Source of the DNA: a virus
Reading direction: 5' to 3' (one strand)
Length of the DNA stretch: 36,018 nucleotides
Virus record (IMG/VR): IMGVR_UViG_3300021138_002550
Span: 1 to 36,018 of that record
The translations under genes were made by a program, and so were the position numbers. Below are positions 22,248 through 34,338 of this stretch, one piece after another (positions within the stretch are counted from its first letter, which is position 1; each line of letters starts with the position of its first letter). Below the pieces are notes generated by a model, which ran no database searches, was not told the origin of the DNA, and saw nothing but the letters and a program-made list of their open reading frames with translations.

Positions 22248-22271
22248 CAGCTGACGCACTGTGGACATTGG

Positions 22272-22295
22272 GACACGCGGGGCGACCCGCGTGTC
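22272..22295 (+). terminator. 10-bp GNRA-loop hairpin after the MxKLFTVAG gene
   Basis: GACACGCGGG-GCGA-CCCGCGTGTC forms a perfect 10-base stem capped by a GCGA (GNRA) tetraloop, 24 bases after the stop. There is no T-run after it on either strand, so it is either a weak or factor-aided terminator, or a 3' stabiliser of the upstream mRNA. Confidence 0.6.
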
Positions 22296-22308
22296 GTCGT
22301 ATCTAAGC

Positions 22309-22316
22309 TTAAATAA
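22309..22316 (+). promoter_or_regulatory. late-type box TTAAATAA before nucleotidyltransferase
   Basis: TTAAATAA ends five bases before the ATG at 22321. The geometry matches the 18583 box, predicting a leaderless late transcript. Confidence 0.4.
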
Positions 22317-22320
22317 TGCC

Positions 22321-23349
22321 ATGCGCATTCAAGAACTCCTCGAAGGTGGCTGGGACACCACGGTCACACAGGGCACGGTGATCAAGCCTGCCACGGTCAA
22401 GACCACGCTGGCCAAGGTACAGCAATTCGTCACAGACTTCAACCGCTGGCTCAGTGCCACCAACCAAGGTCCGGTTGAGCTGGGCAGGCCCACTGGTTCG
22501 GGCACCTATCACGAGATAGATGCACTAGAACAGCCTGACAAGATCTACGGCGACATCGATCTACAGATGATAGCACCAGACGTGGAAGGTGCTAGCTACT
22601 ATCAATATACCACTCATTGGAACAAGCTAGCTGATGAGTTTGTCAAGAGCCAGCATCCCGATTACATACATCCCGGCGAGAGCAAACCAGGACATCCCAT
22701 ATTCCAGATCGGACCTGATCAATACGTGCAAGTGGATTTCATGTGGCACCCACCTCATCTCAGAGCTTGGGGTGCTGCTCGCGTAACACCTGAGCGCGGT
22801 GTCAAGGGACTACTGGCCGGTAACCTCTACAGCGTGTTAGGTGACTTGTTGGACATGAGCATACAGCACGCAGGAGTGCAGCTCAAGACCGTGAACGACA
22901 TGCATGTGCCGTTCAGCAAGCAGAAGGACACAGTAGTCAAGACCATAAGCGTAGATCCAGAAAGCTTCGTCTATGACATCTTCATGAACGAGTATGAGCA
23001 GATCACTGGAAAGAGCCCGGCCACTGCCAAGTTAGACCCATTGTTAAATCGTTTCCGCGGCAACGATCCCAGTGACGTGAAGATCAGCAAGATGGTCAAT
23101 GCAATCAAAGGTTTAGCACGTAGCTTTGAGCTCAACGGTATGTACGGTAAGAAAGACCTTGCTGGGTTTACAGATGCCAATGATTTCCTAGCACAGTTCA
23201 TGCAGCGTTACGAAGGCAAGGCCATGGGCGATGTAAACAGTGCCAAGCGTGCCAAGGCGGAGACTCCCGAAGCCAAGGCCCGTGCAGAAGCCGATCGGCA
23301 GAAGGTACTGAGCGGCCTAGAGTCAGTCAAAGGACTGTTTAACATATGA
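22321..23349 (+). CDS. Pol-beta-type nucleotidyltransferase-like protein
   Basis: The 342-residue protein has [11 protein letters not shown] (Gly59-Ser60), YGDIDLQM (Asp78, Asp80) and [10 protein letters not shown] (Asp139). This fits the GS...DxD...D catalytic pattern of the nucleotidyltransferase (Pol beta) superfamily, although the first spacer is long because of an ALEQPDK insertion. The C-terminal half is helical and charged. Family members add nucleotides to RNA ends (CCA-adding enzymes), to proteins or to small molecules; the substrate here is open. The ATG at 22321 is used because the in-frame GTG at 22261 would read through a stable hairpin. Its last 27 bases overlap the convergent homing endonuclease. 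Confidence 0.75.
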
Positions 23350-23883
23350 TGCAGTACAGGAGCGTGTGGATAAATGAGATCTTAAGCCGGCTCCGAATCC
23401 GCATAGTTTACCGCATTTAGGACAAGGTATCTTAAGAACAGGTCCGGATTTAATACCTTTCATCTTAGATGGTTTTCCAGATTTGACTGCGGAGATCTTG
23501 GCGTTATGCTCTAAACTTTTGGGCACCCCTCGGATACGAGATATGCGAGATTCTACATGGGAGGCTGATTGTTTACGGCCAAGTAATTTCCCTTTAGCAG
23601 CTCCGCCATTTCCGCCGTCTCCACCGTCGGTTTGATTTCTAAGGATACCTGTGCCAATATCTTTACGACCGTACCATCTAATTAATCTACGCTCAAATGC
23701 AGCTGCTCCGATATCTGTTAGGCCTTCGGCGATGATTACTATAAGATTCTTGTCACTTGGAAGTGGGCAGTTGTGTTTTGGATGCCAGGCTCTATTCTTG
23801 ACACCTTTACCTATGTAATACGGAGTCAAATCTGATTGTCTAAGATAGGCATAGACGTACGAATAGGAGGGATAAGTAGGCAT
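23323..23883 (-). CDS. GIY-YIG homing endonuclease with C-terminal zinc finger
   Basis: A 186-residue reverse-strand endonuclease. YVYAYLRQ (9-16) and YYIGKG (22-27) form the GIY-YIG core, RAW...H carries the Arg, and [12 protein letters not shown] the Glu. A Gly-rich NUMOD3-like stretch ([10 protein letters not shown], then [14 protein letters not shown]) follows, and [17 protein letters not shown] with a later Cys makes a C-terminal zinc finger. It is more AT-rich than its neighbours. It overlaps the nucleotidyltransferase 3' end by 27 bases in convergent orientation, as the other two reverse-strand endonucleases do with their neighbours. Confidence 0.88.
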
Positions 23884-27722: not shown

Positions 27723-27961
27723 TGCTGCATTGGAATTGGGGTTGGTATCCAGATTGGATCAAGGCCAAGCAGGCCGAGCATGAGGCACGTGCCACAGTGA
27801 CCAGGCTGTGCAGCGAGGACAGCAGCCTGACCAGGGCTAGGAAGATCTGCCAGCATGCTGGCATAACTATGGATCGCAACATGATGGCGCTGCTGCCCGC
27901 CATGGTAGAGGTATTGGATGCCTACAAGCAGCTGGATGAGGAAGCGAGGCTACAGCAATGA
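27722..27961 (+). CDS. hypothetical protein, 79 aa
   Basis: A Trp-rich start (MLHWNWGWYPDWIK) followed by helices (EHEARATVTRLCSE..., MMALLPAMVEVLDAYKQLD). Its start shares the previous TGA, and its stop overlaps the exported protein gene. Function unknown. Confidence 0.6.
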   Translation: MLHWNWGWYPDWIKAKQAEHEARATVTRLCSEDSSLTRARKICQHAGITMDRNMMALLPAMVEVLDAYKQLDEEARLQQ

Positions 27962-28287
27962 AGAGACTCTTAGTGATCATGGCCTTGATGGCCACGCCTG
28001 CCACAGCAGAAAGCAATGCTCCAGCAACGCTTAGCTGCTATTTCCAGACAGGTGAAAGCTTCACGGTGGTTGGACAGGCAGGGACCACCATGATACAGTG
28101 GGGTAACAACGCTTTCAGATCTGCTACCAGCGCGTTCGAATCGCCGTGGTTGACAGTGGTGGAACGTGCTGACAATGGCAACATGTTCAAGATGGCCTTC
28201 AACGTCAATACCAAGGATGCGTTTGGAGAGACCACGTTCACGGACGGGCACAAGAAGGGCGGTCCCCTATGGTGCGTTTTTAGGTAA
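27958..28287 (+). CDS. small exported protein with signal peptide, 109 aa
   Basis: The Sec signal MKRLLVIMALMATPATA is followed by a mature beta-rich domain of about 92 residues. It has Cys36 and Cys106 (TLSCYFQTG and PLWCVF), which could form a disulfide in the periplasm. No family is recognised. It resembles the small periplasmic beta-proteins that some host operons and prophages carry. It is coupled to the upstream gene by ATGA. Confidence 0.7.
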   Translation: MKRLLVIMALMATPATAESNAPATLSCYFQTGESFTVVGQAGTTMIQWGNNAFRSATSAFESPWLTVVERADNGNMFKMAFNVNTKDAFGETTFTDGHKKGGPLWCVFR

Positions 28288-30000: not shown

Positions 30001-30516
30001 ATGAACGAAATCTGGATAGTCAGTGACACGCATTTTGGACACAAGAACATACTGGGCTTTAAGCACACAGACGGCAGCTTGATCAGAGGTAGCCGTTTTG
30101 GTTCTGTGGAAGATATGGACGAACATATGATCGAGCGCTGGAACAGCGTGGTGCGCCCAGGTGACAAGGTGTATCATCTGGGTGACGTATACATCGGAGA
30201 TGGCCATAATGCGCTGAAAAGGCTCAATGGTCACAAGCGGTTAATCCTGGGCAATCACGACAATGTGAAAAGCCCGTACCTCTACAACAGTTTCAACAAG
30301 ATACTGATGTGGCGCATGTTCCCAGAGTTCAATCTATTGTTGACACATGTACCCGTGCACGAAAGTAGCTTAGGTTTCAAAGTACAGTATAACGTCCACG
30401 GACACACACATGTTTATTCAATAAATGATCCGAGATACTTCAACGTGTGTGTGGAGAAGATGGATTATACTCCTATCCACATGGAAGATTTAATAGCCAG
30501 GTTACCGCCTCTTTAA
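30001..30516 (+). CDS. calcineurin-like metallophosphoesterase (small type)
   Basis: The 171-residue protein has all five motifs of the family: SDTHFGH (8-14), HLGDVY, LGNHDN, LTHVPVH and VHGHTHVY (about 131-138), which bind two metals. It resembles the small MJ0936/phage-type phosphoesterases; the substrate could be cyclic nucleotides, RNA ends or nucleotides. The 3' third is AT-richer than the rest. It ends 15 bases inside the convergent endonuclease gene at 30502, so the two genes share their 3' ends. Confidence 0.9.
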   Translation: MNEIWIVSDTHFGHKNILGFKHTDGSLIRGSRFGSVEDMDEHMIERWNSVVRPGDKVYHLGDVYIGDGHNALKRLNGHKRLILGNHDNVKSPYLYNSFNKILMWRMFPEFNLLLTHVPVHESSLGFKVQYNVHGHTHVYSINDPRYFNVCVEKMDYTPIHMEDLIARLPPL

Positions 30517-31194
30517 TCGCAATCTACCCGGTACCCAATCTGGACCAGGACAGTCTGGTGACATCCGTGTGTTACTACCGTTATTCCACCATCTGGATCC
30601 TTTGGCCCAGATATTCAGGCCTTTGTTGCGAACACCTATGGTTCTACCTAATGTATATCCAGTTGGAATCTGTGAAGTAGGGTATATCATAAATTCATCT
30701 ATGCCATTGTTTATCCAAAGTTTGCCTCGCTGAGCATCTGCGCCTAATGATGATCCGACATTATTAAACGATAGCCTGCCTTGGTTATAACCAAAGTTTG
30801 GTGGCGTGGTACCAAAATATTGTTCAATACCATTGTTCCACCAATGACCTCCTTTGAGATAATCTTTTGATTTGCCTTTATGGCTAACTGATATCTTGGC
30901 TCTAGTTTCTTTGCTAAGCCTGCCACCGGTCCCTGTTTCTTCTTTGAGATTAGCCCAATCTTTGCTTTCTACTACGTTCCACAATTTACTATAATATGAA
31001 CCCTTAACTGCTAACTCTTCTTTAGTTTGACATTCGCATAGGATCACAGTATCGTAATGCTTGCCATGTTTCTTGAGATGGCTTTGCCAATAGACACCAG
31101 AACCTGTATATCTGTGCGGATCTTTGCGTTGGGTTTGCCCAAGATATTTAAGTCCAGTTATCTGATGGGTCTTAACGTACAAGTAAATAGTCAT
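30502..31194 (-). CDS. Seg-like GIY-YIG homing endonuclease with three WxNNG repeats
   Basis: A 230-residue reverse-strand endonuclease. IYLYVKTHQITGLKYLG is the GIY-YIG core (YLY...YLG), HRYTGSGVYWQSHLKKHG the conserved next segment, as in T4 Seg proteins. NUMOD3-like LSKETRAKISVSHKGKS follows. Then three ~25-residue repeats begin with WWNNG or WINNG and end with GR: about residues 118-143, 160-185 and 200-227. They are probably DNA-reading modules. It is a paralog of the 32293 product, with near-identical leader DNA. It overlaps the 3' end of the metallophosphoesterase by 15 bases. Confidence 0.9.
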   Translation of the reverse strand: MTIYLYVKTHQITGLKYLGQTQRKDPHRYTGSGVYWQSHLKKHGKHYDTVILCECQTKEELAVKGSYYSKLWNVVESKDWANLKEETGTGGRLSKETRAKISVSHKGKSKDYLKGGHWWNNGIEQYFGTTPPNFGYNQGRLSFNNVGSSLGADAQRGKLWINNGIDEFMIYPTSQIPTGYTLGRTIGVRNKGLNIWAKGSRWWNNGSNTRMSPDCPGPDWVPGRLRLKRR

Positions 31195-31249
31195 GCTGTT
31201 GCTCCTTCAAGCGATAGAGTAGGTGGGATTGCCCTCCGCGACCTACACT
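31195..31249 (-). promoter_or_regulatory. conserved endonuclease leader hairpin
   Basis: On the reverse strand: GTAGGT (31241-31246), a 16-base loop with GGGCAATCCC, then ACCTAC (31219-31224). TCTATCGCTT and AAGGAG with the ATG follow. The leader at 33004 is almost identical, and that at 23884 keeps the fold with changed bases. Confidence 0.7.
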
Positions 31250-31258
31250 GATATTTAG
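31250..31258 (-). promoter_or_regulatory. late-type box (CTAAATATC)
   Basis: CTAAATATC on the reverse strand directly precedes the leader hairpin of the 30502 endonuclease. Confidence 0.55.
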
Positions 31259-31286
31259 CAATAATAGATACACTTGCTGATTTTGG

Positions 31287-31314
31287 TTGACAGCTGCGCT
31301 AGCTGTGCTATGTT
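31287..31314 (+). promoter_or_regulatory. GGTTGACA-N16-TATGTT promoter
   Basis: TTGACA (31287-31292) preceded by GG, 16 bases ending TGC, and TATGTT (31309-31314). The leader AAAGAGATTAAA precedes the 33-residue ORF at 31339, which is coupled to the second metallophosphoesterase. Confidence 0.72.
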
Positions 31315-31338: not shown

Positions 31339-31440
31339 ATGAGCATCAAGGACTATACTCTAGGTAGCGACAAGATCGCTCCTCAGTACATTGAAGGCCG
31401 CATCATCACGCTGACCTTCCCCAAGGAAGCTCGCAAGTGA
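31339..31440 (+). CDS. 33-aa protein upstream of metallophosphoesterase
   Basis: The short ORF MSIKDYTLGSDK... ends TLTFPKEARK and overlaps the GTG start of the metallophosphoesterase (GTGA). It sits directly behind a good promoter, which supports expression. It may be a true small protein or a coupling leader peptide. Confidence 0.5.
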   Translation: MSIKDYTLGSDKIAPQYIEGRIITLTFPKEARK

Positions 31441-32321
31441 AGATACAGGTCATATCAGACCTACACTTGGAGCACAGCCGACCACCTCTGCTCGCCAACA
31501 CAGGCAGCGACGTGCTGATCCTCGGCGGGGACATCTGCGTGGCACATCACATCTATCGGCATCCCCGCAGTGATCTACCCAACAATGCCGAAAATGGTCA
31601 GCGGGCGCAGAGCTATCGTGATTTTTTTGCTCATGTGAATGACAACTGGGCTCACGTGATCTACGTGGCTGGTAACCATGAGCACTACAGCGGGCGCTGG
31701 GATCGCACCGTACCTACGCTGCGTGAAGAACTAGCGCATTACCCCAACATCCACTTCTGTGATCAGGACAGAGTGGTGATTGATGATACCGTGTTCTTAG
31801 GCGTGAGCCTGTGGACTGATTTCAATGGTGGTGATCCACTGGACATGCTGGCCATGACTGACCTTATGAATGACTATCATCAGATCACTGAAAAGCAGCT
31901 GCTGGGCAACAGCGATGTTTACCATAAGCTGCGTCCTGCTACCACGCTGGCCAAGCATCGCAGCGATCTGGAATGGTTGCGTGTTCAGCTGAGCTTGGAC
32001 AAGCGCAAGACCGTGGTGGTCACGCACCATTGCCCCAGCCAGCAGAGCGTGCATCCCAAGTACGCTGGGCAGACCATCATGAACGGTGCGTTCACCAGCA
32101 ACCTGGACCACATCATGATGGACCACGATCACATCAAGCTCTGGACCTTTGGACATACCCATTTTGGACATAGGTATCGCATCAATGATACATTATGCGT
32201 ATGCAACCCGCACGGATATCCCAATGAAAGCGGTACAGGATTTGATCCAAACCTTGTTATTGACTTAGATAACATGCCTATACAAGATATGTTCAACAAG
32301 ACGTTGTGGGTTGATCAATAA
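31437..32321 (+). CDS. calcineurin-like metallophosphoesterase with replaced 3' end
   Basis: The 294-residue protein has ISDLHLE (6-12), LGGDIC, AGNHEHY, VVTHHCPS and FGHTHFGH (about 239-246), the complete metallophosphoesterase set. It uses GTG, coupled to the 33-residue ORF. From about base 32165 onward its codons become AT-richer. An alternative version of this 3' end (NQTRVMCNPLGYPGEQ against INDTLCVCNPHGYPNE) survives at 33085, behind the endonuclease, as expected if insertion displaced the original end. A TTTGGACATA direct repeat (32148-32157 and 32163-32172) lies at the changeover. The substrate is unknown. Confidence 0.9.
   Translation: MKIQVISDLHLEHSRPPLLANTGSDVLILGGDICVAHHIYRHPRSDLPNNAENGQRAQSYRDFFAHVNDNWAHVIYVAGNHEHYSGRWDRTVPTLREELAHYPNIHFCDQDRVVIDDTVFLGVSLWTDFNGGDPLDMLAMTDLMNDYHQITEKQLLGNSDVYHKLRPATTLAKHRSDLEWLRVQLSLDKRKTVVVTHHCPSQQSVHPKYAGQTIMNGAFTSNLDHIMMDHDHIKLWTFGHTHFGHRYRINDTLCVCNPHGYPNESGTGFDPNLVIDLDNMPIQDMFNKTLWVDQ
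32148..32172 (+). repeat. direct repeat TTTGGACATA at insertion changeover
   Basis: Two exact 10-base copies, 32148-32157 and 32163-32172, separated by five bases. They encode FGHT and FGHR of the active-site GHTH region. They lie where the gene's composition changes and where the displaced 3' end at 33085 begins to align, so they may mark the homing or crossover site. Confidence 0.5.
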
Positions 32322-33003
32322 CGGGTACGTTTGATTTGATACGTCGTGTGTTCCACGCTTTCTGATGTGCTGTCAACACATTGCCATTTCGTCTGCGCGT
32401 ATCCCAACTTCTCTTAGCCGATTCAGACCACTCTGGTTTTTTCTGTCCTCTGATAGGACTAGGTAATCTACCATCCTGCCAGGATGTTGGTTGATCGCCT
32501 GGTATAAACATACCCTCTTCTACAGAATTGTTATACCATCTTTTCCCAGTTTGTATCTTAGCACCCAACTTGGCACCAATGTTATTAAACGATAGACGAC
32601 CTCTAACATATCCATCAGGGCACGTCTCCGAGAATATCTGATTGACACCATCGTTATACCATCTTCGACGTTTATTGTTCTCTGAATTAAGCAACATACC
32701 TTGCTTGAAACCGTCGGTCATGCTTGTGTCACCGCCGTCACCGGCTTCTGGTTTCAAATTAGCCCATTGTTCACTGTTCACGACATCCCACATAGAGCTA
32801 TAATGTTGTCCGAGAATTTTCACTTCCTCGTTGTTTTCGCACTCTGCTAATATATCAGTGGTGTAGTCATATCCGTGTCTGTCTAGATGCCGCCGCCAAT
32901 GTTTTCCTGATCCTGGATACTTGTGCGGATGGGCATTAGATGTCTTACCAAGATATTTCAACCCCGTTAGGTTATGGGTCTTAATGTACAAGTAAATAGG
33001 CAT
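32293..33003 (-). CDS. Seg-like GIY-YIG homing endonuclease with two WYNxx repeats
   Basis: A 236-residue reverse-strand paralog of the 30502 product: IYLYIKTHNLTGLKYLG and HKYPGSGKHWRRHLDRHG give the nuclease domain. Two repeats beginning RWYNDG and RWYNNS and ending GRL follow. The C-terminal part has SESAKRSWDTRRRNGN and HQKAWNTRRIKSN, which look like a duplicated basic helix replacing the third repeat. It overlaps the 3' end of the second metallophosphoesterase by 29 bases and separates it from the displaced 3' end at 33085. Its first ~60 bases are nearly identical to those of the paralog. Confidence 0.9.
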   Translation of the reverse strand: MPIYLYIKTHNLTGLKYLGKTSNAHPHKYPGSGKHWRRHLDRHGYDYTTDILAECENNEEVKILGQHYSSMWDVVNSEQWANLKPEAGDGGDTSMTDGFKQGMLLNSENNKRRRWYNDGVNQIFSETCPDGYVRGRLSFNNIGAKLGAKIQTGKRWYNNSVEEGMFIPGDQPTSWQDGRLPSPIRGQKKPEWSESAKRSWDTRRRNGNVLTAHQKAWNTRRIKSNVPVIDQPTTSC

Positions 33004-33056
33004 GCTGTTGCTCCTTATAGCGATAGAGTAGGTGGGACTGCCATCCGCGACCTACA
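33004..33056 (-). promoter_or_regulatory. conserved endonuclease leader hairpin
   Basis: On the reverse strand: GTAGGT (33050-33055), a 16-base loop, ACCTAC (33028-33033). TCTATCGCTATAAGGAGC follows. It differs from the leader at 31195 at only a few positions, mostly outside the stem. Confidence 0.7.
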
Positions 33057-33066
33057 CCATATTTAC
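33057..33066 (-). promoter_or_regulatory. late-type box (GTAAATATGG)
   Basis: GTAAATATGG on the reverse strand directly precedes the leader hairpin of the 32293 endonuclease. Confidence 0.55.
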
Positions 33067-33084
33067 CAAAACATCATATTGTAA

Positions 33085-33186
33085 ATGTTCGATTACACCA
33101 TCAACCAGACCCGTGTGATGTGCAACCCACTGGGCTATCCTGGCGAGCAGAGTAGATTTGATCCCAGCTGTATTGTTGATATATAA
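33085..33186 (+). pseudogene. displaced 3' end of a metallophosphoesterase gene
   Basis: This 33-codon frame reads MFDYTINQTRVMCNPLGY and continues with PGEQSRFDPSCIVDI. It aligns with residues ~247-275 of the product at 31437 (YRINDTLCVCNPHGYPNE, GTGFDPNLVIDLD). A TAA stop lies directly before it in frame, so it is unlikely to be translated from upstream. It has the GC-richer codons of the main gene body, unlike the present 3' end of the gene. It is best read as the original 3' end, cut off by the endonuclease insertion. Confidence 0.75.
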
Positions 33187-33189
33187 CTG

Positions 33190-34338
33190 ATGACAGATCA
33201 TTATTGTGCTGCTCCGTTTTCTCACCTCGCACTAGAATGCAGCAAATCTAGCTATCGACCTTGTTGCACATGGCATCACACTGTGCCCTGTCCTATACCA
33301 GACAGTGATCCAGATCCCATGAATCACCCCTGGATGGAATCTCTGCGCGAACACATGCTCAGTGGCGAGCCACACGATGGCTGCAAGAAATGTTATCAGA
33401 ATGAAGCAGCCTCAGGATGGAGCATGCGCAAGGAATTCAACCGTATCCACGGTCGGTTGGTTGATCACGATCTGACCTACCTAGAGATTAATTTTGGCAA
33501 TCTCTGTAATCTCAAATGTAGGATGTGCGGCAGCTGGGGCAGCAGCCGATGGATCGCTGATGAGATCAAGCTTGGTTGGACCCCCAGCCCGCTGGTAAGG
33601 CGGACATTAGATGATATCCATGTTGATTTTGCTCAGCTAACACGCATCAAGTTCATAGGCGGCGAAGTCAGCTTGGAACAAGATTCAATGAGAGAGATAT
33701 TCCTGAGGATCTTGCGAGCTAGAAATGACCTAAAGCATCTGGAAGTAGAGATCATAACCAACGGCACTGTACCGCTCGCTGGTGATATTCTCAGCATGCT
33801 ATCAGCTTGCAACAGAGTGATGATGACGGTTAGCATGGATGGCATAGGCGCATGGAATGATTATCAGCGTACAGGCAGCACCTGGTCTGACATTGCCGAA
33901 ACTGCCAAGCGATACTATGAATTCACATCACCTAATTGGCAGCTGATCATCACCAGCTGTGTTACCATATATACCATAGGTGGTATAACCCAGTTGATAG
34001 ATTGGGTAACCTCAGAGTTACCCATGGCCAAACACATCGTTCAATCAGCGTTTGACCCTGAAGAACTGATACTGCGCAATCTTCCTCAGAGTTATAAGAA
34101 CATTATGATCGACCAGCTAACGCAGTGGGCACCTGCTCCCAGAGAAACATTGCCGGATTGGTTACCCTATAAGATGCACGAATTTGAAACTGTGAGGCAA
34201 GCGCTGATCTGGCACATACAGCAGGATCCAACCTGTAGCTTAGATGAGGTTAAATCGCGCTTAGATCTACTGGATTCTGTGAGAGACGACAGGCTATCCG
34301 AACAAAATACTGAACTTTTTGCGCATTTATTCGGTTGA
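33190..34338 (+). CDS. twitch-domain radical SAM protein
   Basis: This 382-residue protein has an N-terminal Cys-rich domain (Cys6, Cys17, Cys25/26, Cys34, then CKKC at 65-68) of the SPASM/Twitch type. The radical SAM core then starts with NFGNLCNLKCRMCG (Cys106, Cys110, Cys113), with FIGGEVSLEQ as the GGE motif and VEIITNGTVP as the next strand. This order (auxiliary Cys domain before the barrel) is found in the twitch-type radical SAM proteins of T4-like phages. The substrate is unknown. It starts four bases after the displaced metallophosphoesterase end and lacks an obvious promoter. Its GGT-TGA ends on the next -35 box. Confidence 0.9.
   Translation: MTDHYCAAPFSHLALECSKSSYRPCCTWHHTVPCPIPDSDPDPMNHPWMESLREHMLSGEPHDGCKKCYQNEAASGWSMRKEFNRIHGRLVDHDLTYLEINFGNLCNLKCRMCGSWGSSRWIADEIKLGWTPSPLVRRTLDDIHVDFAQLTRIKFIGGEVSLEQDSMREIFLRILRARNDLKHLEVEIITNGTVPLAGDILSMLSACNRVMMTVSMDGIGAWNDYQRTGSTWSDIAETAKRYYEFTSPNWQLIITSCVTIYTIGGITQLIDWVTSELPMAKHIVQSAFDPEELILRNLPQSYKNIMIDQLTQWAPAPRETLPDWLPYKMHEFETVRQALIWHIQQDPTCSLDEVKSRLDLLDSVRDDRLSEQNTELFAHLFG

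Follow-up and report, generated by a model that had tools for sequence, protein, structure and literature searches.

A very likely homing element, made of a convergent GIY-YIG endonuclease gene and a replacement gene 3' end, in a metallophosphoesterase gene of an uncultivated virus

We have analyzed an uncultivated virus record (IMG/VR) of 36,018 bases, the whole of which is called the window here. It contains a metallophosphoesterase gene (MPE2) with a foreign 3' end, a convergent endonuclease gene (HEG2) and, on the far side of the latter, the displaced native end of the same gene. Comparison with related loci shows that the foreign end is linked to the endonuclease, that the native end has been displaced and that the swap has recurred across many gene bodies. 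The locus is very likely a homing element that gives its host gene a new 3' end; cleavage, resistance and transfer are inferred.

Results

Layout of the locus

The features are listed in Table 1. The radical SAM gene is presumed to be the original downstream neighbour of MPE2, and no ORF of notable length besides the endonuclease was found between the two MPE2 gene ends.

Table 1. Features of the two metallophosphoesterase loci in the window
Feature	Position	Strand	Remarks
MPE1 gene	30001..30516	+	3' part inside the tract identical to L003
HEG1	30502..31194	-	Paralogous convergent endonuclease at the MPE1 end; about 100% identical to L003
MPE2 gene, whole	31437-32321	+	Metallophosphoesterase, 294 aa, GTG start
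MPE2 gene body, resident part	31437..32147	+	Until the codon preceding the catalytic GHTH motif
MPE2 element-type 3' end, foreign segment	32148..32321	+	Extended tail ...IDLDNMPIQDMFNKTLWVDQ
HEG2, GIY-YIG homing endonuclease	32293..33003	-	236 aa; convergent with MPE2, overlap 29 nt
Inverted-repeat hairpin, HEG2 5' leader	33028..33055	-	GTAGGT...ACCTAC; read directly
TAAATA, T4-late-promoter-like	33060..33065	-	Outer border of the element; promoter function inferred
Displaced native MPE2 3' end	33085..33186	+	Original stop kept, 3 nt before the next gene
Radical SAM gene, right flank	33190..34338	+	Pfam Radical_SAM 2e-8

HEG2 matched the homing endonuclease family phrog_314 (1.5e-7). The GIY-YIG Pfam domain (PF01541) was matched by 5 of 10 members of the HEG2 family (best E 0.0073) and not by the HEG2 protein itself. 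The top PDB match of its predicted structure model was the catalytic domain of I-TevI, with a probability of 0.98 but an E-value of 0.14. On the strength of phrog_314, the PF01541 matches in the family and the fold match, we accept the presence of a GIY-YIG catalytic domain and count HEG2 as a member of this family. The hairpin of its leader lies within a 110-nt repeat common to HEG1, and each locus compared has TATTTA (+ strand) upstream of the start of its endonuclease, with 11-100 nt between the end of TATTTA and that start. The last 50 or so residues of HEG2 (window 32296-32460) are unlike those of related endonucleases, where W[WY]NNG...GRL repeats form the end; a swap of the DNA-binding module is possible.

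Single-query searches with HEG2 or with the MPE2 3' end found no close relative, and alignment queries were needed to reach the relatives of both. A DNA search of named phages with the region gave no match, and the genome-contig search gave three weak matches only.

Some observations concern neighbouring DNA. A 33-codon ORF at 31341-31440 resembles a fusion scar to which one small gene contributed its start and another its end. The two genes are separate in the related locus L003 (3154-3498 and 3510-4004), which points to the loss of roughly 750 bp from the window by deletion. The gene at 22261-23349 overlaps at its end, by 27 nt, with a third convergent endonuclease (23323-23883, - strand); no displaced end was seen there (window 22261-23883). 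L003 has a small gene with a further convergent GIY-YIG endonuclease (239-811) at its end, and the matching empty site is found at 27958-28287 of the window.

Present and displaced ends of MPE2

The initial annotation had claimed that MPE2 is complete and that a second version of its C-terminus lies at 33085-33186, beyond the convergent endonuclease, and this held. The ORF found there (33 aa) matched PHROG 1649 (metallo-phosphoesterase) at profile positions 255-276, a C-terminal stretch to which MPE2 also extends, and a C-terminal MPE profile matched it with 37.9 bits (domain E 2e-11). It aligned best to the native end of the syntenic relative L005 (19/32), compared with 15/32 for the present end of MPE2. 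No ribosome site was evident by eye, and we read this ORF as a displaced gene end, not as a gene. None of the GHTH codons is left in it.

Three further claims concerned composition. The present 3' end was said to be AT-richer, and it is: 32163-32321 has 39.0% GC for 54.3% in the gene body, lower than all 542 overlapping coding windows of equal size. The displaced copy was said to be GC-richer, which held only relative to the present end, its 46.1% GC being ordinary among the coding windows tested. The AT-rich end was placed from about 32165, a limit that can be refined. The residue preceding GHTH is mostly His in native genes and mostly not in genes with element-type ends, and because of this split the foreign segment is taken to begin at or before codon 238 (32148). 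The donor of this end was not found, the best match (31/56) being to L202.

The piece at 33085 could also be the tail of a deleted second MPE copy, produced by tandem duplication, with the endonuclease merely lying between the copies. It is true that phages carry several MPE genes and that the window has two. However, the remnant begins where MPE2 turns foreign and is of native type, which the end of MPE2 itself is not. Besides, the downstream DNA examined in native-end, endonuclease-free relatives contained no significant second C-terminal piece. We regard a duplication as very unlikely.

Empty-site relatives and conflicting trees

L005 is syntenic with the window and has both MPE1 and MPE2 but neither endonuclease. 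Its MPE2 ends in ...GHTHSCFDYHIGQTRIVCNPYGYPGEINSFDPGLIIEV, the type now displaced at 33085, and the empty-site genes of L001, L002, L199 and L201 end likewise. This was the ending that the initial annotation had predicted for empty-site relatives; genes of this kind ending in the 32165-32321 version would have refuted it, and none was found. Because the radical SAM flank is not syntenic in these relatives, they do not show directly what the right junction of the window's empty site looked like.

A conflict between the protein trees of body and 3' end had been predicted too, and was found. The body of MPE2 groups with the five empty-site genes (100/99, body tree) and its present 3' end falls inside a single clade that comprises the element-type 3' ends (100/98). 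Over the body tree the type of 3' end changes 10 times, and starred branches force at least 7 of these changes. The element-type bodies were a single clade in 0% of 200 bootstraps, and forcing them together cost 468 log units (AU p=1.4e-9). The 3'-end tree was built with the 40 columns common to both types, excluding the extra tail columns, and all six displaced ends detected (see below) were located outside the element-type clade, among native ends. This comparison shows that the host MPE genes are chimeras whose 5' and 3' parts have conflicting phylogenies. Since the element-type ends have the extra tail in common too, they are unlikely to have evolved convergently for resistance. The counts of changes do not tell gain from loss; the direction is given by the displaced native ends.

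Association of the endonuclease with the 3'-end type

Once near-identical bodies were removed, 93 distinct MPE genes were left. Element-type ends were present in 17, of which 14 had the endonuclease, two had a relic (L202 and L206) and one had none (L215). Native ends were present in the other 76, and 74 of these lacked the endonuclease. The exceptions, L087 and L091, have an endonuclease yet native-type ends and speak against the element reading. Seen from the endonuclease, the element-type end was found in 14/16 loci that bear it versus 3/77 that do not (Fisher p=5e-12). The former came mostly from endonuclease searches and the latter from MPE searches; neither kind of search selects directly for the type of 3' end, although both types were present in the MPE query alignment. 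This p value overstates independence because the rows share descent, and the trees are the better test. Among endonuclease-bearing loci only, the endonuclease tracked the gene body (r=0.90) and the 3' end (r=0.78), and once the body was accounted for, its partial correlation with the 3' end was not significant (p=0.11), which also counts against the element reading. The tracking of the body probably reflects long residence within lineages or homing mainly among close relatives.

Recurrence of the layout in related loci

Scans with HEG and MPE queries were used to gather related loci. In many of them a HEG2-related endonuclease is convergent with the 3' end of the host gene, and overlaps of a few to about 80 nt are common. 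The full layout recurs in the MPE class in L086, L094, L159, L163 and L206, and together with the window a displaced native fragment lies beyond the endonuclease in six loci. The displaced-end scores of L086, L094 and L159 were 125, 158 and 118, versus null maxima of 36, 49 and 39, respectively. In L206 the endonuclease has decayed to a relic of ~200 bp, and the hybrid end and a complete native end with its stop remain. Only the GHxH codons and/or the last few codons plus the stop are left of the displaced end in L088, L090, L093 and L174. In the sister pairs L088/L265 and L174/L263, synteny is regained on the right-hand side of the endonuclease, from the final 17-28 nt of the native gene onwards.

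An uncultivated virus record invites the suspicion of a metagenome assembly chimera. Against this, the architecture is found on independent contigs from different metagenomes (the five loci above) and HEG1 with its flanks recurs in L003, which rules out such an artefact as a general cause and makes it very unlikely in the window itself.

Most other convergent endonucleases of the family showed no displaced end, which, like the missing donor of the window's 3' end, counts against the element reading. A search for remnants at the other convergent host genes revealed nothing general; therefore, end swapping is not claimed for all family members. Among cultivated phages we recognised none whose MPE gene has an element-type end, the tail matches being confined to the shared core, and in the T4-like matches the endonuclease is co-directional and upstream of a gp47-type gene. 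Small ORFs separate the displaced native end from the endonuclease in L159 and L163, which gives this gap the look of a landing site for cargo. In L174 and L187 a different endonuclease C-terminus (repeats and a zinc-finger-like end) accompanies the same site and the same element-type gene end, a pattern that suggests nuclease turnover.

Signs of recent homing at MPE1

HEG1 is a paralogue of HEG2 (49% identity). A 1.1-kb tract from about 30190 to 31290, of which about 320 bp belong to MPE1, matches L003 at 100% identity save for one 98% window, and its flanks have ~85% identity. The tract fits recent homing with co-conversion of the MPE1 3' part, an inference from sequence alone without any experiment. 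No displaced end was seen at the HEG1 locus.

Such a tract also speaks for another explanation of MPE2, ordinary free-standing homing in which a single one-sided, illegitimate repair dragged a divergent 3' end along as a passenger, the former end being mere debris. T4 offers documented cases of one-sided events with illegitimate junctions (PMC2988022), and the displaced piece of the window has no GHTH codons. However, at least 7 separate body lineages have endonucleases tied to one and the same 3'-end lineage, and a passenger would not be expected to stay one lineage across unrelated bodies. Displaced native ends also recur in six loci, plus more decayed ones. We find the passenger explanation unlikely and prefer the element reading.

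A second host gene

Related endonucleases are found with the same layout at a HAD-like gene (phrog_420). On the far side in L183, YEDKPENA-IKNWREIYEIVTS-stop appears immediately after TATTTA and matches native ends such as those of L286 and L296; the HAD-like gene of L183 itself ends ...VKNWKEIYHLITNATH. Among about 80 loci, tails of the NANH/NATH/SASH type were found only in endonuclease-bearing ones (alignment evidence, no trees). In L128 and L173 a PhoH-like gene has the endonuclease at its 3' end, and a YEDK-like motif, as in the HAD target, is kept at the promoter; it may be a carried remnant or an autorepression operator.

The MPE loci have a comparable feature, since GHxH-like codons open the far-side DNA shortly after TATTTA in L086, L087, L088, L090, L091, L093 and L094. 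This stretch could be an autorepression operator rather than insertion debris, given that I-TevI has an operator similar to its homing site and overlapping with its late promoter (PMC2988022) and that L128 and L173 keep the target-like motif despite their PhoH-like host. But an operator covers 15-25 bp only, not displaced ends of 30-45 codons with stops. As a replacement for the element reading it is very unlikely, although an operator function may hold in addition.

Discussion

Proposed mechanism

The initial annotation had proposed an endonuclease plus a spare 3' end as the mobile unit, and our data support it, mobility and cleavage being inferred only. The putative unit would consist of the antisense endonuclease gene, with its T4-late-type promoter, and the MPE 3' end from the catalytic GHxH codons. 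In a co-infected cell, the endonuclease would cut the native GHTH-FDY coding region of the uninvaded phage. Cleavage there is inferred because the displaced pieces start at this region, right after the endonuclease promoter. The donor would then be copied during repair, with the gene body as left homology arm and, as right arm, the displaced native end of the donor. A lineage may instead have been entered one-sidedly at first, with an illegitimate join on the right; one-sided events are documented for T4 introns (PMC2988022). The recipient would keep its gene body, gain the element 3' end and the endonuclease, and have its old 3' end pushed to the far side. On insertion the gene would exchange its last part and not be lost. 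The element 3' end, altered at the cut region, is presumably resistant and carries its own stop. Selective cleavage of the native over the replacement allele is inferred only from sequence differences at the presumed site. Homing is likely to occur mostly between related phages, as the endonuclease tracks the body as well as the 3' end.

Comparison with known systems

The closest precedents are found in fungi. WHO elements target FBA1 in Torulaspora and Lachancea yeasts (Coughlan et al. 2020, PMC7282813). There too, the host gene is an intact chimera, with 5' and 3' parts of conflicting histories, and has the endonuclease downstream of it, the displaced former 3' end is on the far side, relics persist after decay and some WHO genes are antisense. 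Our locus has the chimeric host and the displaced fragment that characterize this structural class. However, WHO endonucleases are intein-derived zinc-finger proteins acting in yeast meiosis, and HEG2 is a phage GIY-YIG enzyme without homology to them; it does not belong to the WHO protein family (zinc-finger endonucleases homologous to HO). Also, the phage endonuclease ORF overlaps the replacement gene end, and no large clusters were seen.

In the mORF hybrids of fungal mitochondria (Allomyces atp6; Glomus atp6/atp9/cox2/nad3; PMC3630166), a foreign C-terminal end and an endonuclease, of GIY-YIG type in Glomus atp9, were inserted and the native C-terminal end was displaced downstream. These are organelle genes, which ours is not, and the mORF is in phase or co-transcribed with its host gene, whereas the phage endonuclease is convergent with its own putative promoter. 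The free-standing Seg/Mob endonucleases of T4 share with HEG2 the GIY-YIG domain (Seg), a T4-like late promoter and co-conversion tracts, but they are intergenic and, except segD, co-directional with their neighbours (PMC2988022); gene-end replacement is not described in the relevant sections of that paper.

Integrase-type islands carry a replacement gene 3' end that makes their insertion harmless, and they use a site-specific recombinase and att sites. The initial annotation had compared the locus to such gene-restoring elements. The likeness is functional only, recombinase (integrase) and att sites being absent, and WHO elements and mORFs are closer analogues.

Significance

The strategy was already described in fungi. 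We found no phage example of a 3'-end-replacing homing element in the literature searched (which included few subscription papers), and as far as this goes the phage case is new. The use of the same logic with an unrelated nuclease points to convergent invention, and accounts for the ability of a selfish nuclease to enter coding sequence with neither intron nor intein. A bolder reading, towards which we lean without much confidence, is that tailed phages carry widespread homing elements whose payload is a cleavage-resistant target 3' end. They would be aimed at catalytic-motif codons (GHxH in metallophosphoesterases, EDK in the HAD-like gene) and would repeatedly rebuild gene ends; the endonuclease C-terminus would be antisense to the replacement end, and therefore the two hard to separate. 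Whole-gene phylogenies are unsafe for such phage genes, and chimeric 3' ends are predicted in phage genes near convergent endonucleases.
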